64,000 bases of DNA. It comes from Sinimarinibacterium sp. NLF-5-8 (GTDB lineage: Bacteria > Pseudomonadota > Gammaproteobacteria > Nevskiales > Nevskiaceae). The position numbers and the translations under genes are program-made. How positions within the stretch are numbered: position 1 is the stretch's first letter; each line of letters opens with the position of its first letter. Below the pieces are notes generated by a model that saw only the letters and a program-made list of their open reading frames with translations, was not told the DNA's origin and ran no database searches. Positions 10,070 through 47,864 of the stretch are shown here, piece by piece. The stretch spans positions 1,240,001-1,304,000 of the forward strand of contig NZ_CP048030.1 in NCBI RefSeq assembly GCF_010092425.1. The letters are read 5' to 3'.

Positions 10070-10134
10070 CAGGTAGTCCCTCAACTCAACAACAAAGCGC
10101 GCCATTGTAGAGCGCGCGGTCTTTTGCCTTCGGC

Positions 10135-10222
10135 GTGATTGGTGATTCGTGATTGGCAAGATGATGCGGCGGTTAATCACCAATCACATTTCACCAATCA
10201 CGCTTCATCCATCACCAATCAC
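10135..10222. repeat. Cluster of short ATCACCAATCAC/ATCACGAATCAC repeats
   Basis: Between trmJ and cysE. GTGATTGGTGATTCGTGATTGG (two and a half inverted units) is at 10135-10156, followed by ATCACCAATCAC at about 10176-10187 and further copies at 10191-10201 and 10211-10222. The arms are complementary, so the region could fold into hairpins. The 12-mer ATCACGAATCAC (minus strand, 10142-10153) also occurs at 5086-5097 on the plus strand. Units are too irregular for a CRISPR. Confidence 0.65.
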
Positions 10223-10244
10223 TTAGCGCGCGCACCGCGCGCGG

Positions 10245-11039
10245 TCACAACGGCACCCGCCGATTCTTGGGCTTTTCAAACGACGTCAAAATCCCGCGCA
10301 AAATATTCAGCTCGTTGCGATCCGGGGCGGCGCGGTTGAAGAAGGTGCGCAGGCGGCGCATCAAATGACGCGGGTTGCTGGGGTCGATAAAGCCGGTGGA
10401 CAGCAGCAGCCGTTGCAGGTGCTCATAAAAGCGTTCCACATCGTCAGCCGACGGCGGCGCATACCACGGATGGCCGTCTTTGGCGGCGGTGGTCACCTGC
10501 CCTTGCACGGTGCTGCGGCGCAGCTCGTAACACATCACCTGCACCGCTTGCGACAGGTTCAACGAGCTGAAATCGGGATTGGTGGGGATCAGCGTTGTGG
10601 CATGGCAATGATCCAGCTCATCGTTGGTCAGGCCGGTGCGTTCGCAGCCAAACACCAGCGCCACGCGCGCGCCCTGGCGCGCCAGCCCCAGGGCTTTATC
10701 GGCGCTGTCCCAGGGTTGCAGCGGCGCATCGCCCAGGTGCCGGGGGCGCGCGGACAGTGCCACCACCCAGCCGCAGTCCGAGACGGCTTCATCCAGGGTT
10801 TTGACCACGCGCGCGCGGTCGAGCACGTCGGTGGCGTGAGTGGCGTTGGCGCGCGCTTGCGGGTGTGGAAAACGGTCGGGGTTGACCAACACCAGGTCGG
10901 TCAAACCCATCGTCAACATCGCGCGCGCGGTGCTGCCAATGTTGCCGGGATGCTGGGTCGAAACCAGCACAATGCGCACCTGCGATAGCGGGTCAGCCGC
11001 TGCGCCGGTGCTGGCAGAATCAAGGGGAGAGCTGTTCAT
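10245..11039 (-). CDS. trmJ: tRNA (cytidine/uridine-2'-O-)-methyltransferase TrmJ
   Basis: 264 residues. It methylates the 2'-OH of position 32 in certain tRNAs. SPOUT-fold features are VRIVLVSTQHPGNIGSTARAMLTMGL at the N-terminus, then VALVFGCERTGLTNDELDHC and IPTNPDFSSLNLSQAVQVMCYEL, which form the knotted SAM site. The ATG at 11039 is used; the open frame running up to 12041 is antisense to suhB. It is divergent from suhB with 63 bp between, a common pairing in gammaproteobacteria. A GCGCGC-centred palindrome at 10234-10245 reaches its stop codon. Confidence 0.93.
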   Translation of the reverse strand: MNSSPLDSASTGAAADPLSQVRIVLVSTQHPGNIGSTARAMLTMGLTDLVLVNPDRFPHPQARANATHATDVLDRARVVKTLDEAVSDCGWVVALSARPRHLGDAPLQPWDSADKALGLARQGARVALVFGCERTGLTNDELDHCHATTLIPTNPDFSSLNLSQAVQVMCYELRRSTVQGQVTTAAKDGHPWYAPPSADDVERFYEHLQRLLLSTGFIDPSNPRHLMRRLRTFFNRAAPDRNELNILRGILTSFEKPKNRRVPL

Positions 11040-11102
11040 GCGTGATATTCTATTGTGCTTTGCAGCACTTGCTCTCCAACTTTTTAATTCGGGAACGGCT
11101 CC

Positions 11103-28351: not shown

Positions 28352-29248
28352 TTACGCCTGATCCGCGCGCGCCGCAGTTTTCAGTATCTCAGCCAGTTTT
28401 TGTGCGCCCGGCCCGCTGGCGTCCTGGTGGGTCAAAATCAAAAACAGCTCAGCCCAGCGCTCACCGCCCTCGATCAGTGGCAGGGGCTTGAGCGCACCGC
28501 TGGCCAGTTCTTCGCGCACCGTGTTTTCGGCAAACCAGGCAAATCCCAGCCCCATCACCGCCGCGCGGATCGAGGTGGCTTTGGCAGTGACCGTCCAGCG
28601 TTGATCGGCGCCGAGCCAGCCCACATCCCGATTGCGCTGGCTGCCGCTATCACGCAGCACCAGTTGCCGATGCGCGCGCAAATCTTCCCGCGTCAGCACG
28701 CGCCCCAGACGATGCAGCGGATGATGCGGCGCAGCGGCGCAGACAAAGCGCAGTTTCATCAGCGGATCGTGCATAAATCCTGGGGGAATGCGCGAGGCAA
28801 TGGCCAAATCCACCCGCCGCTCCAAAATCGCCTCATCGGTGCCACCAAGGACGGTCTCAAACAGCTCGATGCGCGTCTGTGGATGCGCGCGCGCAAACTG
28901 ATCCAGACAATCCAGCAGCAACCACGTCGGAAACACCACCTCCACGGCCAGCTTGAGCTCGGCTTCCCAGCCCTGCGCCAGTTGTACGGCTGCGCGCTCG
29001 ATGCGCTGCGCCTCATCCAGCAAGGCGCGCGCGCGCCGCAATAAAACCTGCCCGGTGGGCGTGAGCTGTGCACGCCGCCCCTGAATCTCAAACACGCTGA
29101 CGCCCAGCAGGCTTTCCAGCTTTTGCACGGCATAGGTAATGCTGGACTGGGTTTTGTGCAGTCCCTCAGCGGCTTGGGCGTAGCCCCCGGCATCGACCAC
29201 CGCCACAAACGCGCGCCATTGGTCGAGGCTGATTTTAGGAGCATTCAT
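28352..29248 (-). CDS. LysR-family transcriptional regulator
   Basis: 298 residues. The N-terminal winged HTH is at about residues 5-64 (LDQWRAFVAVVDAGGYAQAAEGLHKTQSSITYAVQKLESLLGVSVF), followed by a periplasmic-binding-like effector domain from about 90. The effector is unknown. It is divergent from doxX/pirin/pirin/osmC across a 239-bp gap holding an inverted repeat, so it probably controls that redox cluster and itself. Confidence 0.92.
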   Translation of the reverse strand: MNAPKISLDQWRAFVAVVDAGGYAQAAEGLHKTQSSITYAVQKLESLLGVSVFEIQGRRAQLTPTGQVLLRRARALLDEAQRIERAAVQLAQGWEAELKLAVEVVFPTWLLLDCLDQFARAHPQTRIELFETVLGGTDEAILERRVDLAIASRIPPGFMHDPLMKLRFVCAAAPHHPLHRLGRVLTREDLRAHRQLVLRDSGSQRNRDVGWLGADQRWTVTAKATSIRAAVMGLGFAWFAENTVREELASGALKPLPLIEGGERWAELFLILTHQDASGPGAQKLAEILKTAARADQA

Positions 29249-29487: not shown

Positions 29488-29892
29488 ATGAACACTTTTC
29501 TCGAACCGCTGCGCCCTCACCTCTTGCTGATCGGCCGCGTGCTGCTGGCCGCCATGTTTATTCAAGCCGGCTGGGGCAAGATCAGCGCTTACGAAGCCAC
29601 CCAAGGCTATATGGCGGCGATGGGGGTGCCCGGCGGGTTGCTGCCGCTGGTGATTTTGGCTGAGCTGGGCGGCGGGCTGGCGATTTTGCTGGGCTTTCTG
29701 ACGCCCGTGGCGGCGTTAGGGCTGGCGGTATTCAGCGTGATCGCAGCGGTGCTGTTTCACGGCGGCGATGATCCCGCACAGCAGATCCACTTCATGAAAA
29801 ACCTCAGCATTGCCGGTGGACTGGTTGTTTTGGCGGCTGCGGGTGGCGGACGCGCCAGCATCGATGCGCTGATACAGCGCAATCGCCGCTAA
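29488..29892 (+). CDS. DoxX-family membrane protein
   Basis: 134 residues from the ATG at 29488 with AGGAAA upstream. Four hydrophobic helices occupy most of the protein (LLLIGRVLLAAMFIQAGWGKI, GGLLPLVILAELGGGLAILLGF, VAALGLAVFSVIAAVLFHG and a C-terminal one). The first helix with the G-WGK pattern and the second with ELGGGL are typical of DoxX/YphA-type inner-membrane oxidoreductase subunits. It is the first gene of the cluster with two pirins and OsmC, 37 bp before the first pirin. Confidence 0.88.
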   Translation: MNTFLEPLRPHLLLIGRVLLAAMFIQAGWGKISAYEATQGYMAAMGVPGGLLPLVILAELGGGLAILLGFLTPVAALGLAVFSVIAAVLFHGGDDPAQQIHFMKNLSIAGGLVVLAAAGGGRASIDALIQRNRR

Positions 29893-29929
29893 CCCTTTTT
29901 TCAATCCTTAGAAACCAAGGAGATCGATC

Positions 29930-30790
29930 ATGCGCTTACGCACATTGACTCACCAAATCGACGGGGCTGTCACCTCCGATGGCGCGGGCGTCAAACTGCG
30001 TCGCAGCCTGGGCGCCCGTCCCGACTTGCGGCTGGATCCGTTTTTGATGCTGGACGAGTTTGGCACCGACAATCCCAACGACTACATCGCCGGTTTTCCG
30101 TCGCACCCGCACCGGGGCTTTGAAACCGTCACCTATATGATCGACGGTCACATGCAGCACCGCGATCACCTCGGCAACGTGGGTGAGCTCAAAAGCGGCG
30201 GCGTGCAGTGGATGACGGCCGGTCGCGGGGTGATTCACTCGGAAATGCCGCAGCAGGAATCAGGCCGGATGCGTGGTTTTCAGTTGTGGATCAACCTGCC
30301 GGCCCGCGAAAAAATGAAGCCTGCGTCGTACCAGGATATTCCGGCGGAGCAAATCCCAACGGTTGAACTGCCGCAGGGCGGTACGCTCAAGGTGATTGCC
30401 GGACAAGCCACGGCGGGCGATCAAACCATTCACGGGGCGATCAACCCCGTGCCGAACAGCATGAGCACCGATCCGCTGTTCCTGGACTTCGATCTGCCCG
30501 CCAACGGCAGCGCGGCAACGCCGGTGACGCCCGGCCATAACGCGATGATTTATGTCTATGAAGGCAGCGTGACGGTGGGCGCGCATCGCTTGCAAGCCGG
30601 TTCCGGCGGCATTTTGTCCGACGGGGATACACTGGAACTCAAAGCAGGCGCGCAAGGCCTGCGGATGATTTTGATCGCCGGCAAGCCGCTCAACGAGCCG
30701 GTGGCACAATACGGGCCGTTTGTGATGAACACCCGTGAAGAAATCGAGCAGGCGATTGACGATTACCAAAATGGGCGTTTGGTGGCCTGA
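29930..30790 (+). CDS. Pirin-family protein (first copy)
   Basis: 286 residues, bicupin. Cupin 1 has the metal-site SHPHRGFETVTYMIDG and GELKSGGVQWMTAGRGVIHSE, which together supply three His and one Glu. Cupin 2 is at the C-terminus and lacks metal ligands, as in known pirins. Members are quercetin-dioxygenase-like or redox sensors; the substrate here is unknown. AAGGAG lies upstream. It is followed by a 30-bp palindrome and a second pirin. Confidence 0.93.
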   Translation: MRLRTLTHQIDGAVTSDGAGVKLRRSLGARPDLRLDPFLMLDEFGTDNPNDYIAGFPSHPHRGFETVTYMIDGHMQHRDHLGNVGELKSGGVQWMTAGRGVIHSEMPQQESGRMRGFQLWINLPAREKMKPASYQDIPAEQIPTVELPQGGTLKVIAGQATAGDQTIHGAINPVPNSMSTDPLFLDFDLPANGSAATPVTPGHNAMIYVYEGSVTVGAHRLQAGSGGILSDGDTLELKAGAQGLRMILIAGKPLNEPVAQYGPFVMNTREEIEQAIDDYQNGRLVA

Positions 30791-30810
30791 GTCCCTTTAC
30801 CCTTGCTGCC

Positions 30811-30840
30811 TTGCCCATGACCGCGCGCGGTCATGGGCAA
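30811..30840. repeat. 30-bp perfect palindrome between two pirin genes
   Basis: TTGCCCATGACCGCG followed directly by its own reverse complement, so no loop. It lies 20 bp after the first pirin stop and 28 bp before the second start. No T-run follows, so it is not a typical terminator. It contains ACCGCGCGCGGT, which also occurs in other intergenic regions here. Confidence 0.85.
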
Positions 30841-30868
30841 AGCAACTCAAATAACACAGGAGAACCCG

Positions 30869-31804
30869 ATGAGCGCCACCGATCCCAGTGCCAACCCCAA
30901 CGACTGTCAACGCTGCGCAGGCAGCGCGCTCGAACGCATTCCCGGCCGCGAAAGCATTCTGGGCGAGGACATGAAAATCCGCCGGGTACTGCCCTCACGC
31001 CAGCGCCGCACCGTTGGCGCCTGGTGTTTTCTTGATCACTTTGGCCCGGTCAGCGTCGAAAAAAGTACCGGAATGCGCGTCGGCCCCCACCCGCACACGG
31101 GCTTGCAGACTTTCACCTGGCCGATTTCCGGCGAAATCTTGCACCGTGACAGCCTCGGCTATACCCAGGTGATTCGCGGCGGTCAGGTCAACCTGATGAC
31201 GGCAGGCCGGGGGATTTCACACTCTGAGGAATCCCCAGTGCCGCGCTCGCCGGTATTGCATGGGGCGCAGTTGTGGATTGCCCTGCCCGATGCGCACCGC
31301 CACATCGAGCCGGATTTTGCGCACTATGCCGACATCCCCGCCATTGACAAAGACGGCTTCAAAATCACCGTCATGGCCGGCGAAATGCTGGGGCTGACCA
31401 GCCCGGCCAAGATGTACAGCCCGATCGTCGGCGTTGAACTGCTCACCGCAGGCGGTGGCAACACCACCCTGCCGCTGCGCGCCGATTTTGAATACGGCCT
31501 GCTGGTGCTCGAAGGGGAATTGCATTTTTGCGGCCAGCGCGCGATCCCCGGCGAAATGCTGTATCTGCCGCCCGGCACTACGCTGGCGCAAGCAGACAGC
31601 GCCAGCGCCTCGCGCGCACTGCTGCTTGGCGGCACCCCGTTTGAAGAAGAAATTCTCATCTGGTGGAACTTCATTGGCCGCACCAAAGCAGAGATTGAAA
31701 CCTGGTGTGCGCAGTGGAATGCCGGTGAGGGCTTTGGCACCGTCAGCGGTTACGATGGCAAGCCTTTGGTCGCGCCCGCGCCGCCGTGGGCACCCAGCGC
31801 CTGA
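30869..31804 (+). CDS. Pirin-family protein (second copy, divergent)
   Basis: 311 residues from the ATG at 30869 (ACAGGAG upstream); the ORF is open 12 codons further up without support. Metal-site motifs are VGPHPHTGLQTFTWPISGEI and VNLMTAGRGISHSEES. It has an N-terminal extension with CQRCAGSALERIPGRESILGEDMKIRRVLPSRQRRTVGAWCFLDHFGP, so it is a different subfamily from the gene before it. Two unlike pirins in one operon suggest related but separate substrates or partners. OsmC follows 30 bp later. Confidence 0.92.
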   Translation: MSATDPSANPNDCQRCAGSALERIPGRESILGEDMKIRRVLPSRQRRTVGAWCFLDHFGPVSVEKSTGMRVGPHPHTGLQTFTWPISGEILHRDSLGYTQVIRGGQVNLMTAGRGISHSEESPVPRSPVLHGAQLWIALPDAHRHIEPDFAHYADIPAIDKDGFKITVMAGEMLGLTSPAKMYSPIVGVELLTAGGGNTTLPLRADFEYGLLVLEGELHFCGQRAIPGEMLYLPPGTTLAQADSASASRALLLGGTPFEEEILIWWNFIGRTKAEIETWCAQWNAGEGFGTVSGYDGKPLVAPAPPWAPSA

Positions 31805-31834
31805 CCCCTTGCCAACTTCACAGGATCGCTTCAC

Positions 31835-32233
31835 ATGAAAGAAATCACCCGCGCGCACGTCACCTCGGCTGACACCCCTTATCGTCAAAACATTCAGGCC
31901 GGCCGTCACTCACTGGTCTGCGATGAACCTGAAAGCCTCGGCGGTCGCGATGCCGGCGCCTCGCCTTACGACTTCATCCTCGCCGGGCTGGGCGCGTGTA
32001 CCGCCATCACGCTGCGCATGTATGCCGAGCGCAAGCAATGGGCGATTGGCCACGTCACCGTCGATCTGCAATTGCTCAAAAACAAGGAAGGCGAAACCCG
32101 GATTGACCGACAGATCAGCTGCGATGGCACGGTGGATGATGCGCAGTGGACGCGCCTGCTGCAAATTGCCGAAAAAACCCCGGTCACGCTGACGCTCAAG
32201 GCCGGCGCCACCATTCAAACGCGCAAAGCCTGA
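31835..32233 (+). CDS. OsmC-family protein
   Basis: 132 residues. It resembles the short OsmC/YhfA type. ASPYDFILAGLGACTAITLRMYAERK carries one of the family Cys, but the second redox Cys (ISCDGTV region) is offset, and whether it acts as a peroxidase is uncertain. It is the last gene of the doxX-pirin-pirin-osmC group, followed by a GC-rich hairpin and T5. A response to organic peroxides or electrophiles is inference from family and neighbours. Confidence 0.85.
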   Translation: MKEITRAHVTSADTPYRQNIQAGRHSLVCDEPESLGGRDAGASPYDFILAGLGACTAITLRMYAERKQWAIGHVTVDLQLLKNKEGETRIDRQISCDGTVDDAQWTRLLQIAEKTPVTLTLKAGATIQTRKA

Positions 32234-32285: not shown

Positions 32286-32367
32286 GTTGGGTAGGGGCAA
32301 AAACGGCCAACACGCCTATACTGCCTGGCATGACCTGCTACTGCCTTGATTACACAGGAGTCCTTTG

Positions 32368-33810
32368 ATGAACACCGTCGTTTCATATCTGCCCGGTGCG
32401 GCCGCCGCCCCTTCCGAGATCCAGCGTGTTTTTGAACGCCAGCGCGAAACCGCAATCCGCCTGCGCACCTCGACCGCACAAGAACGGATCATGCGCATCC
32501 AGCGCCTGTATGACGCGGTGATGGCGCATCGCACCCAAATCCACGAAGCCGCGTATCAGGATTTTAAAAAGCCGCCCGCTGAAGTCGATCTGGCCGAAAT
32601 CATGCCGGTGCTCAGCGAGGCCAAACAGGCCATGCGCAAGCTCAAAAAATGGATGAAACCGCAGCGGGTGATGCCCACGCAACTGACACTGGGCACTTCT
32701 TCCTGGATTCAGCGCGAGCCCAAAGGCCGCTGCCTGATCATTTCCCCGTGGAATTACAACGTCAATCTGTGTTTCAGCCCCTTGGTGTCGTGCATTGCCG
32801 CAGGCAACACCGCGATTCTGAAACCCTCGGAAATGACGCCGCATCTGTCGGCACTGATGGGCAAGATCGTGCGCGATCTGTATCCCGAGGATGAAGTGGC
32901 GCTGTTTGAAGGGGATATGAGCACGTCCACCGCGCTGCTGGAGCTGCCGTTTGATCACATTTTTTTCACCGGCTCGCCAGCCGTCGGCAAGATCGTCATG
33001 GCCGCAGCGGCCAAACATCTGACCTCGGTGACCCTGGAGCTGGGCGGCAAGTCTCCGACCATCATCGACGAAACCGCCAACATCCGCGAAGCCGCACAAA
33101 CATTGATGTGGGGCAAATACACCAACAACGGCCAAACCTGCATTGCCCCGGACTACATCTACGTTCATGCCTCCAAAAAGGAGGAATTTGTTGCCGAATG
33201 CATCAAGGTTCTGGAAACCTGCTACGGAAAAACCATGCAGGAACAGCTCAGCACCCCGGCGCTGGCGCGCGTGGTCAATCAGCGCCATGCCAAGCGCGTC
33301 AACGGCCTGCTGACCGATGCCAAAGAGCGCGGCGCGCGCGTATTGTTTGGCGGTGAGGCCGCAGAAGATCAATGCTTTGTGCAGCCCACCCTGCTCGACA
33401 ACATCCCCGACGATGCGCGCATCCAGTCCGAAGAAATCTTTGGCCCGCTGCTGCCGATCATCGCCTACACCAACCTCGACAAAATCCTGGCCGACATCAA
33501 CGCCGAAGCCAAGCCGCTGGCGCTGTATATCTGGAGCAAGCACGAGCCGACCATCCAAAAAATCCTCAAGCAAACCAGCGCCGGCGGCACCTGCATCAAT
33601 CACTGCGTGGTGCAGTACGTTCATGGCAACCTGCCGTTTGGCGGGGTCAACAACTCCGGCATCGGCAGTGCCCATGGTCTGCACGGTTTTCTGTCGTTCT
33701 CCCACGAGCGCGCGGTGGTTCGGACTCGCTTCAACTCGGCCAAGATCCTGTATCCGCCGCATAACGGCTTCAAACGCAAGGTGCTGGAATTGATGCTGAA
33801 AATGACCTGA
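32368..33810 (+). CDS. Aldehyde dehydrogenase family protein (coniferyl-aldehyde/class 3 type)
   Basis: 480 residues, NAD(P)-dependent oxidation of an aldehyde to the acid. The catalytic Glu is E224 in VTLELGGKSPTII and the nucleophile is C258 in NNGQTCIAPDY. Short N-terminus and no C-terminal extension place it with the class 3/coniferyl-aldehyde group, often active on aromatic or long-chain aldehydes. ACAGGAG precedes the ATG at 32368. It ends in a strong terminator shared with the convergent second aldehyde dehydrogenase. Confidence 0.92.
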   Translation: MNTVVSYLPGAAAAPSEIQRVFERQRETAIRLRTSTAQERIMRIQRLYDAVMAHRTQIHEAAYQDFKKPPAEVDLAEIMPVLSEAKQAMRKLKKWMKPQRVMPTQLTLGTSSWIQREPKGRCLIISPWNYNVNLCFSPLVSCIAAGNTAILKPSEMTPHLSALMGKIVRDLYPEDEVALFEGDMSTSTALLELPFDHIFFTGSPAVGKIVMAAAAKHLTSVTLELGGKSPTIIDETANIREAAQTLMWGKYTNNGQTCIAPDYIYVHASKKEEFVAECIKVLETCYGKTMQEQLSTPALARVVNQRHAKRVNGLLTDAKERGARVLFGGEAAEDQCFVQPTLLDNIPDDARIQSEEIFGPLLPIIAYTNLDKILADINAEAKPLALYIWSKHEPTIQKILKQTSAGGTCINHCVVQYVHGNLPFGGVNNSGIGSAHGLHGFLSFSHERAVVRTRFNSAKILYPPHNGFKRKVLELMLKMT

Positions 33811-33888: not shown

Positions 33889-35385
33889 TTACTTGCCCTT
33901 GATCTTGCCGGTGATCTTGATGATGCCGTTGATGGCATTAATCATCGCATCCGGCACCTTGATCTCTTTGGCCAGCATCTTGGCGATCATGTCCTTGTAC
34001 TTGTCGGAGTACGGCGGGAACATGATGTTAGGATCGCCCGCCGGATATTGATCCTCCACCACCGCGCGGGTGTTGGAGCATTCAATAAACGTGTATTTGC
34101 CGCCCAGACGGCCTTGGCCGCTGTGATTGACGCCGCCAAACGGCAGATACGGGTTGGTGCCCGATTGAATCAGGTTGTGATTGACCACCAGGCTGCCGGA
34201 GCTGGTGCGCGCGATGAACCAGTCGATCGCCTCACGGTTTTTGGCAAAGATGTACGAACCCAGCGGCTTGGGGCGGCGGCGAATGGTGTCAATCGCCTGA
34301 TCGCGCGCGCCAAACGGCACGATGCAGATGATCGGGCCAAAAATCTCCTCCTGCATGATGCGCATGTCTTCGCTGACATTGCTCAAAATGGTGGGCGAGA
34401 TGAACAGATCATCGGCGTCGGTTTCACCGCCAAACTCCAGCTTGGCGCCTTTTGCCAAAGCGTCGTCGAGCAATCCCTTGATGCGATCAAAGTGACGGCG
34501 GTTGACGATGCGCGGCACGTCGGCGGATTGCTGAAAGCCTTTGCCGTCGGCGTTGTACATCAGCGTCATGCTCTTGCCGAGCTCGCGGGTAAAGTCCTTG
34601 GCGATGCTGTCATGCACCAGCGCGTAGTCCGGTGCCAGGCACACTTGTCCGGCGTTGGCAACCCGTCCCCAGGCGATTTTGCGCCCGGCTTCTTCCACGT
34701 CCGCGCTTTGATCGACGATGACCGGGTTCTTGCCGCCCATTTCCAGCGTCACCGTTGCAAAGTGCTCGGCTGCCGCGCGCAGGATGATGCGCCCCACGGC
34801 GTGACCACCGATGTAGAAGATATGGTTGAACGGCAATTTGAGCAGATCGCTGGAGACTTCAGGCCCGCCGATCATCACCGCAAACTCATCCTCGGCAAAC
34901 ACTTTGCCGATGATCTCATGCAGCACCTGCGCCGAATGCGGCGCCAGTTCCGACGGCTTGAGCACAAACGGACAGCCTGCGGCAATCGCCCCGAAACCCA
35001 CCACAAACGCCTCGGCAATCGGCGCGTTCCAGGTGGAAACGTGCAGCACCAGGCCCTTGGGCTCGTATCGCACATAGCTGGCCTTGCCCAGCGTCATCAG
35101 CGAGCCCTGGATCGGCTGCGGTGCCATCCACGAGGCCAGATGTTTGCAAATAAACTCCGCTTCGCCTTTGACCATCAAAAGCTGCGCATCGATATCGGTG
35201 GGCGACAGGCGCAGTTCGGCATGCCCGGCTTCCAATATTTTCTCGCGCGATTCCAGAATCACCTTGAGCAGCTTGCGCAGTTTTTCAATGCGCTGTGCGG
35301 CACTGGTCAATGCCAGCTCATGCGATTTGGCTTTCCAGGCATCAAATTGCGCCTGATAGGGATTGATTTGTTCTGCTGCACCCAT
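33889..35385 (-). CDS. Aldehyde dehydrogenase family protein (second)
   Basis: 498 residues. Motifs are LVLHVSTWNAPIAE, VTLEMGGKNPVIV (catalytic Glu) and ANAGQVCLAPDYALVH (catalytic Cys), then the C-terminal LPFGGVNHSGQGRLGG. It is distant from the aldehyde dehydrogenase on the other side of the terminator, so the two are not a recent duplication. It is the last gene of the Rieske cluster on the minus strand, after a terminator at 35412-35447, so it may have its own promoter or rely on read-through. It likely oxidises the aldehyde product of the pathway. Confidence 0.92.
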   Translation of the reverse strand: MGAAEQINPYQAQFDAWKAKSHELALTSAAQRIEKLRKLLKVILESREKILEAGHAELRLSPTDIDAQLLMVKGEAEFICKHLASWMAPQPIQGSLMTLGKASYVRYEPKGLVLHVSTWNAPIAEAFVVGFGAIAAGCPFVLKPSELAPHSAQVLHEIIGKVFAEDEFAVMIGGPEVSSDLLKLPFNHIFYIGGHAVGRIILRAAAEHFATVTLEMGGKNPVIVDQSADVEEAGRKIAWGRVANAGQVCLAPDYALVHDSIAKDFTRELGKSMTLMYNADGKGFQQSADVPRIVNRRHFDRIKGLLDDALAKGAKLEFGGETDADDLFISPTILSNVSEDMRIMQEEIFGPIICIVPFGARDQAIDTIRRRPKPLGSYIFAKNREAIDWFIARTSSGSLVVNHNLIQSGTNPYLPFGGVNHSGQGRLGGKYTFIECSNTRAVVEDQYPAGDPNIMFPPYSDKYKDMIAKMLAKEIKVPDAMINAINGIIKITGKIKGK

Positions 35386-35411
35386 GGCCTTACCTCGTCA
35401 CCACATTCATC

Positions 35412-35447
35412 AAAAAACGCTGTTGCACACCACCGCATGCAACAGCG
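35412..35447 (-). terminator. Rho-independent terminator between SDR and aldehyde dehydrogenase genes
   Basis: Arms CGCTGTTGCA (35418-35427) and TGCAACAGCG (35438-35447) with a 10-nt loop. On the minus strand the stem is followed at once by TTTTTT. It lies 14 bp after the SDR stop. Confidence 0.8.
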
Positions 35448-35460
35448 CCCAAAACACGCT

Positions 35461-36327
35461 TCAGCCTTTGTAAGCGGGAATCTTGAAGGTCTTGCGCATG
35501 ATCGCTTCCAACTGACTGTCGGAGAGCAAGCGACGCATGATGCCCATGGGCTTGACATCCTTACCGAGAAGCTCCATCGGCTGCCATTTTTTCTTGTCCA
35601 GAATCGCCAGCGTGCCTTCCAGCGCCTGCTCCGGCGTGCTGCCGGTTTTCTCCAGCATGTCGGGCAACACTTTGCACATCACCGGCTCGATGGTCGGGCC
35701 GTAAACCTGACGCACCGCTTCAGGCTGCATGTTCCAGGTTTTTTTGGTGTTTTCGTGGGAGTTGGCCGACATTGCCGTCAGCACCCCGCCAGGAATGATC
35801 GAGGTCACCTGAATGCCAAACGGCGCCAGCTCGTGACGCAGCGTCAGCGTCATGCCGTGAATGGCGTGCTTGGTCATGTTGTAGATGCCCGCACCGACCG
35901 GGTTGGCAATGATCGCACCGGAGCTGTAGTTGACGATGCGCGAGCCGGGCGCATTCTTGCGCACCAGCGGCAGGAATGCCTGGATGACGCGCAACTGGCC
36001 GAACATGTTGATATTGAACAGGCGCTGTGCCTGTTCAAGGTCTGCACCCTCGATCACACCGACGGCGATATTGGCCACGCCCGCGATATTCATCAGCAGA
36101 TCCAGACCCTGGCCACCGAGTTGTTCGGTGACAAACTCGGCACTGGCTTTGACCGATTCGTCTTTGGAGACATCCTGATCGACAACAACGATGTTGCCTT
36201 CAGTCTTCAGATCTGTAGGCGCACCGGGCAGCACGCCAGCAAACACTTTCCAGCCGCGCTGTGCCAGTGCTTTGGTCAGAAGATTGGCCTGGCCGATATT
36301 GGCGCCGGTAATAAATGCAGTTTTCAT
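35461..36327 (-). CDS. Short-chain dehydrogenase/reductase
   Basis: 288 residues from the ATG at 36327 (GGGGAGG upstream). The cofactor site is TGANIGQ at residues 7-13; the classic third glycine of TGxxxGxG is Ala or absent (TGANIGQA), an unusual variant. NIAG is at about 80-83. The catalytic Ser is in VNYSSG (135-136), and Tyr149 and Lys153 form YNMTK. It most likely oxidises or reduces an alcohol/ketone step of the Rieske pathway. The C-terminal 60 residues form a helical cap with KKKWQPMELLGKD. Confidence 0.9.
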   Translation of the reverse strand: MKTAFITGANIGQANLLTKALAQRGWKVFAGVLPGAPTDLKTEGNIVVVDQDVSKDESVKASAEFVTEQLGGQGLDLLMNIAGVANIAVGVIEGADLEQAQRLFNINMFGQLRVIQAFLPLVRKNAPGSRIVNYSSGAIIANPVGAGIYNMTKHAIHGMTLTLRHELAPFGIQVTSIIPGGVLTAMSANSHENTKKTWNMQPEAVRQVYGPTIEPVMCKVLPDMLEKTGSTPEQALEGTLAILDKKKWQPMELLGKDVKPMGIMRRLLSDSQLEAIMRKTFKIPAYKG

Positions 36328-36350
36328 CTTGCTAAAACCTCCCCGAAAGA

Positions 36351-36376
36351 AACGGGGCGGATCAAGCCGCCCCGTT
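36351..36376. other. Intercistronic hairpin between DUF1329 and SDR genes
   Basis: AACGGGGCGG and CCGCCCCGTT are perfect 10-bp arms around ATCAAG. It lies 28 bp after the DUF1329 stop and 24 bp before the SDR start. The T-run after it on the minus strand is short and broken, so it may be an attenuator or mRNA-stability element. Confidence 0.7.
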
Positions 36377-36403
36377 GCGAACAGCACTTGATGTGCCAGA
36401 TTC

Positions 36404-37771
36404 TCAGTGACCACCACGCGCAGCGGCCTGCGGGCTGAACTCCGCCGGCTTGAGCGGAAGATTGATCTGCCACCAGTCATTACCGCGCTCGTTGACCATG
36501 TACCAGGCTTCATACGCGCGCGCGGTGAGGTCGTGATAAACCGACACGCCGCGATGGAATGCCGAGGATTGCGGCGAGTAGAAGAAGTTGACGTAGCTGA
36601 CACGATACAGCTGGCCGCGCGCGTCGTAGTTATCGGCCCACAGCGTCAGCCAGGTATCTTCATCTGCATACAGGCGGCGTTTGCTGTAAACGTGGCGCAT
36701 GCCTTGCCTGAGTTCGCCTTCCACCACCCAGACGCGGTGCAATTCATAACGCACGATTTCGGGGTTCAGGGTGTTGGGCGTCAGCATGTCCTTGTACTTG
36801 AGCGCAGGATCGTTGACCTTGAAGTTGTGATACGGCACCAGCATCTCTTTTTTGCCGACCAGTTTCCAGGTGTAGCGCTCGGGCGAGCCGTTGAAGCCAT
36901 AGTCATCATCGACGGTACGGCCATTGAACGGCGGGACCGGGTAATCGCAGCACACTTCAGGCGCCTGGCGGACACGGCGAATGCCCGGCTGGTACTGCCA
37001 CGACTGGGTCGCGTCGTTGCTGAAGTTGTTGGGCTGATACCCCACCGCCACAAAGCCCTTGTCGCGCTCCGGCAACTGATAGCCGGTATAAAAATATGCG
37101 GCAATCTTGTCGGTATACGAAGCCCGCTCGGTTGGATTCATGCCGGTATTGAGCGTTTTGAACACGTTACGTCCGTAGGACACCGTACCGTTGGCCAGCA
37201 CCTGGGCAATATCGGTCACCGCTTTTTCTGACCACGCGCGCGGCGGGTTGATGATGTTCCAGACCGCTTCCTGGCCGTTCTGCGGGAATGCAAACGGAAT
37301 GCTGCCGGTGGTGCCGGTGATGCCCAGACCGCCGTCGATCACTTCCGAGGTGGTCGCATTCTTTTTGGTGGTATCACAGACGAACTGCGGAAAGCCAAAA
37401 TCGCGATGGCTCTGGTAAACGTTCATCTTGTAGGAATCCGGGTACTGCTTGAACAGCGCCTTCTGACCTTCGGTCAATTTGTCGGCGTGTTCGGCCATAT
37501 TGGCGGCCGTGATCGTGAACAGCGGCTTTTCGTCGGCATACGGCCCCGGATCGTAGCCGGATTTTGCCTTCATGCCCGGCCACTGGCCGACCCATTTGCC
37601 GGAATACTCAGGGATCCCCGATGCGGTGCCTGCTTTTTCGGCGCCCATGCAGGTGTATTTGTCGCCGCCGAGTTCAGCCGCTTTTGCGGCATCGACCTTG
37701 GCCGTTGCGGTTTGGGACAGCCCCGCCAGCAAAACTGCGGCACAACTGGCCGCCATGACATTCAACTTCAT
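36404..37771 (-). CDS. DUF1329 domain secreted protein
   Basis: 455 residues. The signal peptide (MKLNVMAASCAAVLLAGLSQTATA) ends at residue 24 or so, so it is periplasmic. The DUF1329 pattern is RRVRQAPEVCCDYPVPPFNGRTVDDDYGFNGSPERYTWKLVGKKEMLVPYHN with later YELHRVWVVEGELRQGMRHVYSKRRLYADEDTW. Such proteins share the LolA/LppX-like lipid-binding fold and are often found in catabolic gene clusters of hydrophobic compounds; a role in moving the substrate through the periplasm is inference. It lies between ferredoxin and SDR, on the same strand. Confidence 0.88.
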   Translation of the reverse strand: MKLNVMAASCAAVLLAGLSQTATAKVDAAKAAELGGDKYTCMGAEKAGTASGIPEYSGKWVGQWPGMKAKSGYDPGPYADEKPLFTITAANMAEHADKLTEGQKALFKQYPDSYKMNVYQSHRDFGFPQFVCDTTKKNATTSEVIDGGLGITGTTGSIPFAFPQNGQEAVWNIINPPRAWSEKAVTDIAQVLANGTVSYGRNVFKTLNTGMNPTERASYTDKIAAYFYTGYQLPERDKGFVAVGYQPNNFSNDATQSWQYQPGIRRVRQAPEVCCDYPVPPFNGRTVDDDYGFNGSPERYTWKLVGKKEMLVPYHNFKVNDPALKYKDMLTPNTLNPEIVRYELHRVWVVEGELRQGMRHVYSKRRLYADEDTWLTLWADNYDARGQLYRVSYVNFFYSPQSSAFHRGVSVYHDLTARAYEAWYMVNERGNDWWQINLPLKPAEFSPQAAARGGH

Positions 37772-37913
37772 GACATCTCCTCAATGATGAAAAATACTGC
37801 AAAACCAGAATATATCGACGAACCCAAAATGACAGCCCCGCCACTCAACCTGATCCGTGGCGCGCTGTCCAGATCGTTCAGGATTGCAACACCCGCTGCA
37901 TCATCCAAAACAA

Positions 37914-37946
37914 TGACCTGTGCAATTCGATTTGCGCACAGGGTCA
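37914..37946. other. Imperfect hairpin between ferredoxin and DUF1329 genes
   Basis: TGACCTGTGC and GCACAGGGTCA pair with one bulged G around AATTCGATTTGC. The 183-bp gap between the ferredoxin stop and the DUF1329 start otherwise shows nothing recognisable. Confidence 0.5.
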
Positions 37947-37954
37947 CGCTGACC

Positions 37955-38278
37955 TCATACCGGAGGCGCAATCTCGACGGCCAATCCCTGCAGGGCTGCA
38001 TGCATGCCAATCTGGCAGGACAGCCGCGAAGTGGGACGCAGCGGCACCAGATCGCCGATGGCCTCCAACATGGCGGCTTCATCCTCGCTCTTGGGCGGCA
38101 ACTTGTCGGCCCAGGCCGGATCGACATACACATGGCAGGTTCCGCACGACATCATGCCGCCACAGGTGCCTTGTACGCTGGTGCCTTCATCACGCAGCGT
38201 TTCCATCAGCTGGGTGCCTTCTTCGGCTTCCACGGTCGAAACCGCGCCGGCTTCACTCGTCACTGTTACCGCAACCAT
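37955..38278 (-). CDS. 2Fe-2S ferredoxin (adrenodoxin/putidaredoxin type)
   Basis: 107 residues from the ATG at 38278, with GGAGAGGG close upstream. Cluster ligands are C39, C45, C48 and C88 (TCGGMMSCGTCHVYV and LSCQIG), the vertebrate-type spacing C-x5-C-x2-C. It likely passes electrons to the Rieske oxygenase encoded just upstream. No reductase gene is in the window, so one must be supplied from elsewhere. Confidence 0.93.
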   Translation of the reverse strand: MVAVTVTSEAGAVSTVEAEEGTQLMETLRDEGTSVQGTCGGMMSCGTCHVYVDPAWADKLPPKSEDEAAMLEAIGDLVPLRPTSRLSCQIGMHAALQGLAVEIAPPV

Positions 38279-38301
38279 CAATCCCTCTCCAGAAAACAAA
38301 G

Positions 38302-38353
38302 CGGCTGCGCCGCGCATCCGGCGTTTTTCACGCCAGATGCGCGAACGCAGCCG
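38302..38353. other. Large hairpin between Rieske oxygenase and ferredoxin genes
   Basis: CGGCTGCG ... GCGCATC ... GGCGT in the first half pairs with ACGCC ... GATGCGC ... CGCAGCCG in the second around a TTTTTC loop. On the minus strand the transcript passes through it from oxygenase to ferredoxin. It lacks a terminal T-run. Confidence 0.65.
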
Positions 38354-38368
38354 TCACCACGAGATGCC

Positions 38369-39382
38369 TCAGGCTTTCGGCTGCGCGCCTTCAAAGCCGG
38401 GATAAAACTGCCGGAACCAGCGACGGAACGTCACGATCGGGCCGTCGCCATCACACAGCAGCGGGTTCGGACGATATTTTTTGTGGTTCCAGACGATGAA
38501 GTCCACGCTTTCAAAGCCGGCACTGTCCTCACCTTCGGCCGCACCGATCATGTGATCGATCATGCCCTTGGAGATCGCCAGTTCCTTGGTGCCTTCGGCG
38601 TAATCCACGTGACGGAACTTCATGTTCATCGTGGTTTTTTCCTTGGTCACCGGCACCGAATACGAAATCATCGTGCAGGTGATGCCGTCCTTGGTGAAAC
38701 GCATGACGTTCAGCCCCGGGCCGTAGATATCGCCAACGATGTAGCCATTGCCAATATTCAACTTCATCAGCGGGCCATCATATTTGGCTTCGACCGGCGG
38801 AATGATCGGCGCCTTGTGCAAAAACTTCAGATGCGCAACGTCAACGCCGTTTTCGGCAATTTCCTGGATGCAGGTATCGGCCGTCCACGAACCTGCACGA
38901 GCACCGGCGTAGCCGGTGGCGTCTTCCAGTTCGGGGATATATGGCAGCTCATAGGTCGGCTCATCGCACTGCGGGTGATACCACGCCCACAACATGCCGT
39001 ATTTTTCGACCATCGGCAGCGTGCGCAGGATCGCCTGTTTTTTGACGATCGGCGGCGTCAGCTTGGCGTAGGGAATCACCTTGCACCAGCCTTCGGTATC
39101 GTATTCCCAGTGGTGGAACGGGCAGCGCAGGTGCTCACCGCAAACCTCACCGCCGTGACCCATGTGCGCACCCAGATGCGGACAGTAAGGATCGGACATT
39201 CCGGGCTTGCCGGACTCGGTGCGGAACAGCACCCATTCCTGCCCAAACAGAAAAACGTTGCGCAGCTCGCCTGCCTTCAGATTTTCTGATTCGTCAACAT
39301 AAAACCAGCCCACCGGGATCGGGAACGGTGAACGCTCCAAGTGTTGAGATTCCAGAAGTTGGTTGAGATCGATGGCACCCAT
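38369..39382 (-). CDS. Rieske [2Fe-2S] oxygenase, KshA/Neverland-like
   Basis: 337 residues. The Rieske cluster ligands are C67, H69 (YCPHLGAHMGHGG) and C87, H90 (CPFHHWEYD). The catalytic domain has the mononuclear iron site N178-x2-D181-x2-H184-x4-H189 in ENGVDVAHLKFLHK. Size and layout fit single-component-type oxygenases such as 3-ketosteroid 9-alpha-hydroxylase or cholesterol 7-desaturase, rather than two-subunit aromatic dioxygenases. It inserts O2 into, or desaturates, a hydrophobic ring substrate; which one is unknown. It heads the ferredoxin-DUF1329-SDR series on the minus strand. Confidence 0.9.
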   Translation of the reverse strand: MGAIDLNQLLESQHLERSPFPIPVGWFYVDESENLKAGELRNVFLFGQEWVLFRTESGKPGMSDPYCPHLGAHMGHGGEVCGEHLRCPFHHWEYDTEGWCKVIPYAKLTPPIVKKQAILRTLPMVEKYGMLWAWYHPQCDEPTYELPYIPELEDATGYAGARAGSWTADTCIQEIAENGVDVAHLKFLHKAPIIPPVEAKYDGPLMKLNIGNGYIVGDIYGPGLNVMRFTKDGITCTMISYSVPVTKEKTTMNMKFRHVDYAEGTKELAISKGMIDHMIGAAEGEDSAGFESVDFIVWNHKKYRPNPLLCDGDGPIVTFRRWFRQFYPGFEGAQPKA

Positions 39383-39401
39383 GATGGTCAGCCCTCCATT
39401 A

Positions 39402-39421
39402 ATTGCACGTCAATTGCACGA
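39402..39421. promoter_or_regulatory. Direct repeat of AATTGCACG upstream of Rieske gene
   Basis: Two exact copies, 39402-39410 and 39413-39421, 11 bp apart centre to centre, one helical turn. They lie 20-39 bp before the ATG in the gap that must contain the promoter, and could be a regulator site (for instance of the nearby TetR protein). Confidence 0.4.
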
Positions 39422-39537
39422 TTTGAAACAACGCGATGTAGACCCAAAGATTGCAAGAACCCTGGCAAGAATGGTGCACTTGCAAGCGGTTCGGCGTCTT
39501 AGTCCGTTCAGGTGAAACTCAAAATACCCTGCGCAAA

Positions 39538-39702
39538 TCACTCCTCGTAGGGTTCAAACGATGACTTCGGCGACGCACATTCCGGACACATCCAATCGTC
39601 CGGAATATCTTCGAACCGGGTTCCCGGTGCGATGTCATGGTCGGGTAACCCCGCCGCCTCGTCGTACACAAAACCACAAATCACACAAATCCACTTTTTC
39701 AT
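39538..39702 (-). CDS. Rubredoxin
   Basis: A 54-residue gene. It begins MKKWICVICGFVYDEAAG. The four iron ligands are C6, C9, C39 and C42 (CPECASPK, where the usual residues after the second pair are CG). GAGGAG precedes the ATG at 39702, only 12 bp after the TetR stop, so it is in the TetR transcript. Rubredoxins carry electrons to alkane hydroxylases or similar oxygenases. It may serve the adjacent oxidative cluster, but its partner is unknown. Confidence 0.92.
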   Translation of the reverse strand: MKKWICVICGFVYDEAAGLPDHDIAPGTRFEDIPDDWMCPECASPKSSFEPYEE

Positions 39703-39714
39703 CGTCACCGCTCC

Positions 39715-40428
39715 TCAAATTTTTTCGGCAGCATCCGGCAATGACTCACCGCGCGCCTGGGCAATGCCGCGCAGCAAATCCATCAGCCCGCGCATCCACA
39801 GCGCAGGATCACTGTTCAGATACACCTGGCTGACGCGGCGCACCCGTGTCAGCTCATGCGGCGCCCGGCTGCTGAGCACCCGTCGCATCGCCATATCCTG
39901 CGGCAGCCCCGACTGCGCCGCCGCCGCAACCGAACTGGCGCCCACCGCTGCGCCGATCACCAGCATCGCCACCGAATGATGCAGATGCACACCTTCGGCC
40001 GGGGTAAACCCATGCGGTTCCAGTGCCGCCAGAAATTGCTCCAGAAAATCAACCTCGACCTCGGGCCCGAGCCGCCCTTTCATCAACTCGTAAACCAGTT
40101 GCGGCTCACGCACAAACGACTCAAACAGCGCCTCGGCATAACCCATCGCAATTTGCGACCAATGCGTGGCCCGAGCCGCTTCCTGCAATGGCAGGCGGCC
40201 GCTCAGTGCAACCTTGAACGCCGCAAGCCGCACCAGCTCATCGCGATTGCGCACATGCCGGTAAAGCGTGGCCACGCCCACCCCAAGCCGGTCGGCCACC
40301 TGTTTGAGCGTGACGCCTTCAAGTCCGATTTCTATGGCGGCTGCAACGATATCCGGCGCCTGGACACGCGGTGGGCGCCCCACCCGTGGCGAGCTGCCAG
40401 ACATCGTTTTGAGCACCGTATTGGCCAT
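39715..40428 (-). CDS. TetR-family transcriptional regulator
   Basis: 237 residues from the ATG at 40428 (a TTG eight codons up coincides with the GGAGG). The HTH is at about residues 25-70 (IVAAAIEIGLEGVTLKQVADRLGVGVATLYRHVRNRDELVRLAA). A ligand domain follows. It is the first gene of a two-gene unit with rubredoxin and is the likely controller of the adjacent catabolic genes. Confidence 0.9.
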   Translation of the reverse strand: MANTVLKTMSGSSPRVGRPPRVQAPDIVAAAIEIGLEGVTLKQVADRLGVGVATLYRHVRNRDELVRLAAFKVALSGRLPLQEAARATHWSQIAMGYAEALFESFVREPQLVYELMKGRLGPEVEVDFLEQFLAALEPHGFTPAEGVHLHHSVAMLVIGAAVGASSVAAAAQSGLPQDMAMRRVLSSRAPHELTRVRRVSQVYLNSDPALWMRGLMDLLRGIAQARGESLPDAAEKI

Positions 40429-40473
40429 TGCGCGGGTGCGCCTCCGAGGCAATTCTTCGATGGCCTAAGTTTT

Positions 40474-40487
40474 GAGAATGAGTTCTC
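40474..40487. promoter_or_regulatory. Candidate TetR operator
   Basis: GAGAA-TGAG-TTCTC inverted repeat about 50 bp upstream of the TetR start codon, in a short AT-rich patch. Arms extend weakly (TTT/AAA). A possible autoregulatory site. Confidence 0.35.
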
Positions 40488-40527
40488 GAAATGCTTACCC
40501 CAGATGGATGAGCCACGGTCACCGCAT

Positions 40528-45673: not shown

Positions 45674-46258
45674 ATGGAAAATCCTTTATCGGAGCCCGTG
45701 CTGGCCGATCCTGGCCGTCGCGGATTCCTCAAGCTGGGCGTGATCGGCGGCCTTGCCCTCGGCACCGTTGGAATGGGCGCTGGACTCGCAGGCTGTCATC
45801 GCAACGAACAGGCCAGCGCCGAGGGCTATCAGTTTTTCCGCGATGGCGACATCGCCCTGTTCACGGCCCTGATTCCCGCCATTGTCGCCAACACGCTGAC
45901 GCCCGAACCCGACGCCCGCCGTGCAGGCGTGAGTGAAATCCTGCTGCGCATGGATCAGGCCTGCCTGCGTCTGGGCGCCCCCGCACAAAAAGAGCTGCGC
46001 CAACTGTTTGATCTGCTCAATTTTGGCCTGACCCGACGCCTTGCCGCCGGGGTTGCCAAGCCCTGGGATCAGGTTTCCGAAGACGATGCCGCAGCCTTTC
46101 TGGATCGCTGGCGCAACAGTTCCATTGGCCTGTTCAACGCCGGCTATCGCGTGCTCATCAAACTCCCCACCGTCACCTATTTCACGATGCCGCAAAGCTG
46201 GGCGGCAGTCGGCTATCCCGGCCCGCTGAAGTGGATGTTCGACGCCATCAACCGTTAA
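45674..46258 (+). CDS. Tat-exported lipoprotein, gluconate 2-dehydrogenase subunit 3-like
   Basis: 194 residues; GGAGAG precedes the ATG at 45674. The twin-arginine motif DPGRRGFLKLGV (R15 R16) and a lipobox LAGC (C41) predict a folded, lipid-anchored periplasmic protein. The mature domain (FFRDGDIALFTALIPAIVANTLTPEPDARRAGVSEILLRMD ...) fits the small subunit family of gluconate 2-dehydrogenase. The GMC flavoprotein follows 10 bp later and presumably is carried across the membrane with it. No cytochrome c subunit is seen next to them. Confidence 0.85.
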   Translation: MENPLSEPVLADPGRRGFLKLGVIGGLALGTVGMGAGLAGCHRNEQASAEGYQFFRDGDIALFTALIPAIVANTLTPEPDARRAGVSEILLRMDQACLRLGAPAQKELRQLFDLLNFGLTRRLAAGVAKPWDQVSEDDAAAFLDRWRNSSIGLFNAGYRVLIKLPTVTYFTMPQSWAAVGYPGPLKWMFDAINR

Positions 46259-46268
46259 AAGGGCTCCC

Positions 46269-47864
46269 ATGATCAACGATATTTATACCCAGGGCATCGC
46301 CTCCGGCTGGAACGTCGTGGATGCCTCCACGCTCAGCAGCGATCAAACCATCGAAGCCGACATCGCCATCGTCGGCAGCGGTGCAGGAGGCGGCACCACG
46401 GCCGAAATCCTCAGCCAGGCCGGTTTCAAAGTGCTGTTGATCGAAGAAGGCCCGCTCAAAACCGCCAGCAGTTTCAAGGATATGGACGAAGCGCGCGCCT
46501 ACGCCGACCTCTACCAGGAAGCCGGTGGACGCACCACCTCCGACGGTGCGGTTGCCGTGCTGCAAGGCCGCTCTGTCGGCGGCACCACCACCGTCAACTG
46601 GACATCCAGTTTTCGCACGCCGCCGCAAACGCTCAAACACTGGGCCGAGGTTCACGGCGTCATCGGTGCCAGCGAAACCGAAATGGCTCCGTGGTTTGAA
46701 AAAATGGAAGCGCGTCTGGGCATTGCCCCGTGGACACAAGCCCCCAATGCCAACAACTCGGTGCTCAAACGCGCCTGCGACAAGCTCGGCTGGGAAGTGC
46801 ATGTGATTCCGCGCAACGTGCGCGGCTGCTGGGACAGCGGCTACTGCGGTTACGGCTGCCCGGTCAACGCCAAGCAATCCATGCTGGTCAGCACCATTCC
46901 CGAGGCGCTGAAAAAACACGCACAACTGATCCATCACCTGCGCGTTGAACGGGTCGAGCACAAAAACGGACGGGTGACCGGCCTTGCCGCGCGCGCCATG
47001 GATGCCCAGTGCATCCACGCCAGCGGCGCGCGCCTGAGCATCCGCGCGCGTCATTACGTTCTTTCCGGCGGCGCCATCAACACCCCGGCGCTGCTGCTGC
47101 GCTCCCAAGCGCCCGATCCGCACCGGCAGCTCGGCAAACACACCTGCATTCACCCGGTCAATCTCACCCTGGCGGAAATGCCCGAAGCCATCAATGGCTT
47201 TTACGGCGCACCGCAATCCATTGCCAGCGATCAGTTCCAGTGGGACAACGTCGAGGCCGACGTTCCCGGCTTCAAGCTGGAAATTCCGCCGATCTATCCG
47301 GGGCTGTCGGCCAGCATCTACAGCCAGCACGGCCAGCCGCTGGCCGACGGGCTCAAGGCACTGCCGCACGCCACCGCCCTGCTCGCGCTGCTGCGCGACG
47401 GGTTTCACGCCGAAAGCCGTGGCGGCCAGGTGCGCATCGACGATCACGGCAATCCATTGCTGGATTACGACTTCAGTGACTACCTCTGGCGTGGCTTCAA
47501 AAAAGCCTATCTGCGCATGGCCGAAGCCCAGTTTGCCGCTGGCGCCAGGCGGGTGATGCCGTCGCATCTGGATGGCCGCTGGACACAAGGCTGGAATGAG
47601 GCCAAGGCTCACATCGAAACCCTGGCTTACAAAAAATTCCGGGTCTCGGTTTTTACCGCCCACCTGATGGGCGGCTGCGCCATGGGCGAAGACCCCAAGC
47701 GCGCGGTCACCAACAGCCTCGGACGCCACCACCAGCTTGAAAATCTCTCGGTGTTTGACGGCTCCCTGTTTCCCACCAGCATCGGTGCCAACCCACAGTT
47801 GTCGATCTACGGCATGGTCGCCAAAAACGCAACGGCACTGGGTCAGGCGCTCAAACCGGCCTGA
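46269..47864 (+). CDS. GMC-family FAD-dependent oxidoreductase
   Basis: 531 residues with no signal peptide of its own. The FAD-binding site IVGSGAGGGTTAEILSQAG is at 35-53. Active-site His is in FTAHLMGGCAMGEDP and Asn in TSIGANPQLSIYGMVAKNAT. It oxidises an alcohol to an aldehyde or ketone. The family includes long-chain alcohol oxidases, choline and glucose enzymes; CGYGCPVNAKQSM resembles the alcohol-oxidase side. Export may be by hitchhiking on the Tat-signal partner. A weak terminator follows. Confidence 0.9.
   Translation: MINDIYTQGIASGWNVVDASTLSSDQTIEADIAIVGSGAGGGTTAEILSQAGFKVLLIEEGPLKTASSFKDMDEARAYADLYQEAGGRTTSDGAVAVLQGRSVGGTTTVNWTSSFRTPPQTLKHWAEVHGVIGASETEMAPWFEKMEARLGIAPWTQAPNANNSVLKRACDKLGWEVHVIPRNVRGCWDSGYCGYGCPVNAKQSMLVSTIPEALKKHAQLIHHLRVERVEHKNGRVTGLAARAMDAQCIHASGARLSIRARHYVLSGGAINTPALLLRSQAPDPHRQLGKHTCIHPVNLTLAEMPEAINGFYGAPQSIASDQFQWDNVEADVPGFKLEIPPIYPGLSASIYSQHGQPLADGLKALPHATALLALLRDGFHAESRGGQVRIDDHGNPLLDYDFSDYLWRGFKKAYLRMAEAQFAAGARRVMPSHLDGRWTQGWNEAKAHIETLAYKKFRVSVFTAHLMGGCAMGEDPKRAVTNSLGRHHQLENLSVFDGSLFPTSIGANPQLSIYGMVAKNATALGQALKPA

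Follow-up and report, generated by a model that had tools for sequence, protein, structure and literature searches.

A Rieske oxygenase gene cluster of Sinimarinibacterium sp. NLF-5-8 with a probable role in aerobic steroid catabolism

The stretch of DNA analysed here, referred to as the window, comprises 64,000 nucleotides (positions 1,240,001–1,304,000) of the 3.2 Mb single-contig genome of Sinimarinibacterium sp. NLF-5-8, a member of Nevskiaceae (Nevskiales). Between positions 33889 and 40428 it carries seven intact genes, all on the minus strand, in the order TetR, rubredoxin, Rieske oxygenase, ferredoxin, DUF1329 protein, short-chain dehydrogenase/reductase (SDR) and aldehyde dehydrogenase (ALDH). 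We propose that this cluster probably serves aerobic (9,10-seco) steroid catabolism as a satellite operon. The evidence computed for this proposal consists of the gene identities, a separate clade for the oxygenase, co-occurrence with HsaA, linkage to steroid genes and conserved upstream elements. The inventory agrees with the original prediction for this DNA: each of the seven genes was confirmed at its predicted place by an open frame and a Pfam match, and the Pfam families listed below score above their cut-offs.

39715–40428, minus strand: TetR-family regulator (Pfam TetR_N PF00440, 30.8 bits, and TetR_C_1)
39538–39702, minus strand: rubredoxin (PF00301, 79.4 bits; NF045768, 90.4 bits at a cut-off of 90)
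38369–39382, minus strand: Rieske non-heme iron oxygenase of the KshA_C type, 337 amino acids (Rieske PF00355, 66.8 bits; KshA_C PF19298, 85.9 bits)
37955–38278, minus strand: small [2Fe-2S] ferredoxin (Fer2 PF00111, 34.1 bits; longest open frame begins at 38317)
36404–37771, minus strand: DUF1329 protein (PF07044, 378 bits)
35461–36327, minus strand: SDR, 288 amino acids (PF00106, 97.9 bits for the 265-residue piece scanned)
33889–35385, minus strand: class-3-like aldehyde dehydrogenase, termed ALDH_B (PF00171, 288 bits)

The intergenic gaps range from about 12 to 183 bp, with 155 bp upstream of the Rieske gene, a spacing that is compatible with an operon. Start codons were chosen by us for the SDR (ATG at 36327), the TetR regulator (ATG at 40428) and the rubredoxin (ATG at 39702); the longest open frame of the SDR extends back into the DUF1329 gene. 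The ferredoxin probably starts at 38278, because related ferredoxins of 107–108 residues in loci L084 and L059 begin there. In relatives, genes were called on the basis of conservation and by tblastn. As had been stated, the cluster of the window has no ferredoxin reductase, CoA ligase or beta-oxidation gene as a neighbour; its counterpart in Fontimonas (locus L042), however, lies next to genes for a ligase, a CoA-transferase and an aldolase.

The distribution of the Rieske protein was compared with that of HsaA in 61 genomes (the genome of the window and 60 relatives). The window protein finds matches at 1e-3 in 47 genomes with a clean split: 35 genomes have an orthologue, with E-values no worse than about 2e-147, and elsewhere the strongest match has 1.4e-37. 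HsaA is likewise found in 35 genomes (E-value no worse than 5e-131). These are the identical 35 genomes, and both proteins are missing from the identical 26, some genomes scored as lacking them being incomplete (G027, 76%; G031, 91%; G035, 90% in 480 contigs). The Fisher value for this co-occurrence is 8e-18 with kinship ignored; the contrast within genera is the safer measure. Both proteins occur in all sampled members of nine genera and in none of six, and in the six mixed genera their absences are identical. The SDR is found in 31 of the 61 genomes, every one of them inside the HsaA-bearing 35. Outside Nevskiales, 10 of 13 carriers of the wider Rieske clade were tested, and all ten have an HsaA homologue (43–57% identity).

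Homologues of KstD, HsaA and KshA are encoded at a separate steroid locus, about 665 kb from the window cluster. The KstD homologue scores 593 bits to NF005882 (under the cut-off of 788) and the HsaA homologue 389 bits (under the cut-off of 450), while the KshA of this locus matches solved KshA at 4.9e-51. Genes for an Ltp-type aldolase, an OB-fold partner and a second KstD-like protein, the last assigned by eye, follow about 25 kb beyond it. The corresponding aldolase of Fontimonas, which is 84% identical, exceeds the cut-off of NF005892. Two labels were given by eye: ‘isomerase’ for a SnoaL-like protein (L121:10710–11090) and ‘KstD2’ for L124:16665–18209.

Physical linkage to steroid genes was assessed at loci of the best 80 of 81 relatives in a scan of named genomes, of which the first 48 (L041–L088, identity at least 52%) were tested. 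As controls we used 20 loci from relatives at positions picked blind to content. A steroid-pathway marker lies within 10 kb in 24 of the 48 orthologous loci and in none of the controls. The count is 21 when hsaE, hsaF and hsaG are left out, and 17 with markers taken solely from the separate steroid locus of NLF-5-8, minus two labels given by eye. A ferredoxin relative is present within 10 kb of the Rieske gene at 31 of the 48 loci (controls, one of 20). The gene order in Hydrocarboniphaga effusa (L066) is hsaD-, hsaE-, hsaG- and hsaF-like, Rieske, ferredoxin. A Hyphomonadaceae metagenome-assembled genome (L071) has Rieske, ferredoxin, SDR, ALDH, KshA, P450 and hsaEGF-like genes inside 21 kb. 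The series in Fontimonas runs aldolase, OB protein, ligase, CoA-transferase, Rieske, ferredoxin, TetR, P450, rubredoxin, DUF1329, SDR and ALDH.

The cassette consists of two units, one of Rieske oxygenase and ferredoxin, the other of TetR, rubredoxin, DUF1329 protein and SDR with or without the ALDH. All 16 SDR loci inspected, from 14 genomes including that of the window, have DUF1329 next to the SDR. The Rieske and SDR genes are within 6 kb of each other in only seven of the 31 SDR-bearing genomes, and the single seven-gene pathway of the original prediction is thus not borne out as an obligate unit. Orthologues in unrelated operons had been named as evidence against such a pathway; the two modules are indeed often apart, but both are confined to HsaA-bearing genomes.

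Relatives of the tetR gene show 76% identity in Sinimarinibacterium flocculans (L041), 66% in Fontimonas and 47% in L064. In these three loci a P450 gene lies between tetR and the rubredoxin gene, which in the window are about 12 bp apart. No orthologue of this P450 was found among the three P450s of NLF-5-8 (best match 30% over half the length); it is absent from this genome and has perhaps been lost. A different P450 is located beside the Rieske gene in Hellea, and its 50% relative in NLF-5-8 is encoded far away (L141). The 105-residue protein C3 of the linked set gave no Pfam match. A DUF1295 membrane protein was seen within 10 kb of the Rieske gene in six of the 48 loci (L052, 18380–19252; L059, 2691–3560; L051, L054, L058 and L084) and in none of the 20 controls.

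Taken together, we regard the genes as a real catabolic cluster of ordinary size, with steroid breakdown as its most likely role. The catabolic function that had been predicted, and the steroid side of the suggested ‘terpenoid or sterol’ substrate, are backed by the HsaA co-occurrence, the steroid-gene linkage and the likeness to KshA. A number of observations weigh against this assignment. The families of HsaE, HsaF and HsaG serve meta-cleavage in general, and certain of the marker queries originate from the very loci under test. Twenty-two of the 48 loci, nearly all from Nevskiales and including S. flocculans, are without any marker of either set within 10 kb, and NLF-5-8 itself has 665 kb between the cluster and the steroid locus. 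The DUF1329–SDR pair is apart from the Rieske gene in 24 of 31 genomes. KshA-like proteins are nearly as faithful to HsaA, as a further Rieske match exists in 34 of the 35 genomes (G049 being the sole exception). Finally, the ten carriers outside Nevskiales and five further genomes picked for other Rieske types (one with only 30% identity), 15 in all, match HsaA at 1e-30, so that HsaA is not exclusive to the window-type clade.

By sequence, the solved structure nearest to the window Rieske protein is KshA (2.9e-33). Its predicted structure (pLDDT 91.9) likewise has KshA chains as the best solved fold matches (5.7e-24, query TM 0.74). Putative metal ligands were assigned by analogy with KshA: Cys-67, His-69, Cys-87 and His-90 for the cluster, and His-184, His-189 and Asp-294 for the iron. 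All are invariant in 42 aligned sequences. In a tree of 77 rows, two solved Rhodococcus KshA proteins group in one clade (SH-aLRT 100) with 24 other rows, among them the hsaA-adjacent KshA and the Pseudomonas-type copies; the window-type Rieske proteins and their distant orthologues make up a clade of their own, with 29 rows (SH-aLRT 100). This was a quick tree without bootstrap, in which the solved KshA rows are partial and the sister relations of the clades are not resolved. The window protein thus resembles KshA in fold and probable chemistry, yet it is not a member of the KshA clade in the tree. The KshA type of the original prediction holds for the KshA_C domain, sequence and fold, but not for clade membership.

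Among the four Rieske-domain matches in NLF-5-8, the window protein and the steroid-locus KshA are the only two that are KshA-like by size and similarity; they share 26% identity. Rieske relatives on 393 plasmid records are all below 60% identity, the best among those listed having 36%. Sphingomonas laterariae has the window-type Rieske gene twice in tandem (L072, 9962–12073). We found no description of the window-type clade in the literature searched; it may be included in the five KshA clusters defined in the available part of PMC5790920, or among the KshA homologues of Sphingobium.

The window protein might be a KshA isozyme with a 9-alpha-hydroxy- or 9,10-seco-steroid as product, in line with KshA being its nearest solved relative in both sequence and fold. 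According to the available part of PMC6153880, Rhodococcus rhodochrous has five KshA proteins with distinct substrate ranges. According to the accessible text of PMC8540908, three of five Sphingobium Chol11 homologues, when expressed heterologously, formed the seco-steroid that was expected, albeit with very low activity. We nevertheless consider an isozyme rather unlikely. In the tree, characterised KshA and the hsaA-adjacent copies share a clade that does not include the window protein, and no KshB-type partner adjoins its gene. KshA of the NLF-5-8 type is found in 23 of the 61 genomes, all inside the HsaA-bearing 35, and other KshA-like proteins are found in most of the remainder; in six of the 12 HsaA genomes without the NLF-5-8 type, a different KshA-like type was read. 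That the window-type Rieske protein is kept in all 35 HsaA genomes, 34 of which have a further Rieske match, argues against redundancy.

Adjacent to the cluster is a second aldehyde dehydrogenase gene, outside the span predicted originally, which is possibly part of the system:

32365–33810, plus strand: second aldehyde dehydrogenase, termed ALDH_A (family profile match)

A counterpart of ALDH_A with 77% identity is located beside the cassette in S. flocculans. ALDH_A matches the structure 9nxl, a Sad-type steroid aldehyde dehydrogenase, at 3.3e-81; other ALDHs score higher. For ALDH_B, the match to the fatty aldehyde dehydrogenase 4qgk (3.6e-91) is better than that to 9nxl (3.4e-69).

This affinity of ALDH_B would fit an operon for a non-steroid cyclic terpenoid or alkyl hydrocarbon, whose connection with steroid genes reflects a shared lifestyle. 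DUF1329 proteins, rubredoxins and P450s are found in hydrocarbon pathways, and the genome has 17 DUF1329 matches. Such an operon appears improbable, however, as the presence or absence of the Rieske gene agrees with that of HsaA in all 61 genomes, with joint absences in six genera, and as the gene is physically linked to HsaA, KstD, KshA or the Ltp-type aldolase in several lineages. A sterol biosynthetic or modifying role like that of SdmA or Neverland, for which a weak match to the NCBIfam SdmA model could be cited (NF052579, 56.9 bits at a cut-off of 600), is very improbable, since SdmA proteins form a distant clade in the tree and the surroundings of the window-type Rieske gene are degradative.

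Structure prediction for the DUF1329 protein, for which the original prediction proposed a part in periplasmic uptake or binding of the compound, gave a low-quality model (mean pLDDT 46 from an alignment of six sequences). One of the DUF1329 matches in the 3.2 Mb genome lies directly before a P450 gene at 1.618–1.620 Mb.

Two conserved elements were found upstream of genes of the cluster:

40470–40491, no strand assigned: palindrome TTTCGAGAA-N4-TTCTCGAAA with one mismatch, upstream of tetR, candidate TetR operator
39496–39514, minus strand: conserved 19-base element CACCTGAACGGACTAAGAC, about 115–130 bp upstream of the Rieske gene

We take the palindrome as a candidate TetR operator. It is perfect before tetR of S. 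flocculans, has three mismatches in L188 and is found in none of the controls. Allowing three mismatches, it was not found before tetR of Fontimonas (half site only) or of L064, both of which carry tetR. The sole other site in the genome (C1:411728, three mismatches) was rejected as a regulon site; it lies immediately ahead of a short open frame without apparent connection to steroids and seems to be a chance match. The 19-base box (CACCTGAAYGGACTARGAC) is similarly placed, about 100–130 bp ahead of the Rieske gene, in 17 of the 48 loci at up to three mismatches, three of these being the source of the pattern; the matrix was built from 11 sites and is partly circular. At up to three mismatches the box has one match in the genome (two for the reversed control pattern) and one in 400 kb of control DNA. 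A shared steroid regulon marked by this box was discarded, as the box is single in the genome and leaves the other steroid genes unmarked.

For the electron route, the order of steps and the repression we infer the following scheme. The Rieske protein would be a steroid C–H monooxygenase from a clade distinct from characterised KshA. The adjacent small ferredoxin, which takes the place next to the Rieske gene instead of a KshB-type reductase, would feed electrons to it and would in turn be reduced by a reductase encoded elsewhere. A candidate is a ferredoxin reductase of the phenylpropionate- or anthranilate-dioxygenase type (C1:1,580,334–1,581,566), whose best scores are under the family cut-offs. 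Its gene is clustered with those of a GMC-like oxidoreductase, a P450 and a ferredoxin-like protein (L142, C1:1574000–1593999, positions 6335–11100; GMC and ferredoxin assigned by eye). A KshB-type reductase carries a plant-type ferredoxin domain of its own, and one protein of this genome (L217) has a reductase-then-Fer2 layout; any service of it to the Rieske protein would be conjectural.

The Rieske protein may hydroxylate a 3-ketosteroid or a side-chain intermediate, and would thereby cover a step or a substrate left aside by KshA. Hydroxylation at 9-alpha of another substrate and hydroxylation at another ring position are both conceivable, and to the same degree; the side chain is a less probable target, and for any other outcome there is only a small chance. 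The SDR and the ALDH would then oxidize an alcohol and an aldehyde; the aldehyde perhaps comes from the Ltp-type side-chain aldolase of the genome. Acting through the palindrome, TetR would keep tetR and the genes that follow repressed, and its release by a steroid intermediate would end the repression. We put forward tentatively that Rieske oxygenase and ferredoxin carry out a non-textbook steroid oxygenation (not at 9-alpha) on which Nevskiales and several lineages of alpha- and gammaproteobacteria depend. Together with SDR and ALDH, they may replace the actinobacterial P450 side-chain route or open another ring position.

Elsewhere in the window, genes for a DoxX-like, two pirin-like and an OsmC-like protein lie in a row on the plus strand (29488–32233), beside a LysR-like gene (28352–29248); these names were assigned by eye. 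Also by eye, a protein with a signal-like start is followed on the plus strand (about 45700–47864) by a GMC-oxidoreductase-like FAD protein (46269–47864), which could bear on sterol or alcohol oxidation.

Proteobacterial steroid degraders clear hormones, bile salts and perhaps sterols, and not all of their enzymes and electron partners have been assigned. A Rieske clade with its own ferredoxin, present in every HsaA-bearing genome of the 61, offers a testable candidate for an additional step, and possibly a new catalyst for steroid hydroxylation. The 2016 survey PMC4810484, in its accessible part, lists Hydrocarboniphaga among putative steroid degraders and reports no evidence that Proteobacteria break down cholesterol through the seco route. 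For Caenibius tardaugens, the available part of PMC12882949 describes a bile-salt cluster that comprises TetR, amidohydrolase and a monooxygenase whose role is unknown.

With KshA, the window Rieske protein shares the Rieske and KshA_C domains, metal ligands, fold and steroid-pathway setting; it differs in its separate clade and in the small ferredoxin alongside, where KSH, characterised as KshA plus KshB (PMC6153880, available part), has KshB. KshB is listed as absent from Sphingobium Chol11 in the accessible part of a 2021 review (PMC8399759). The 4beta-methylsterol monooxygenase SdmA is likewise a Rieske oxygenase and acts on sterols, but the window protein is far below the cut-off of that family. 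The steroid aldehyde dehydrogenase 9nxl is homologous to both ALDHs of the window and closest to neither. The proteobacterial 9,10-seco clusters of Comamonas, Pseudomonas Chol1 and Sphingobium Chol11 contain KstD-, HsaA- and KshA-like genes and a side-chain aldolase, all of which are also present in NLF-5-8. In contrast to these clusters, NLF-5-8 has its genes scattered over distant loci, and adds to them the Rieske–ferredoxin and DUF1329–SDR–ALDH modules.

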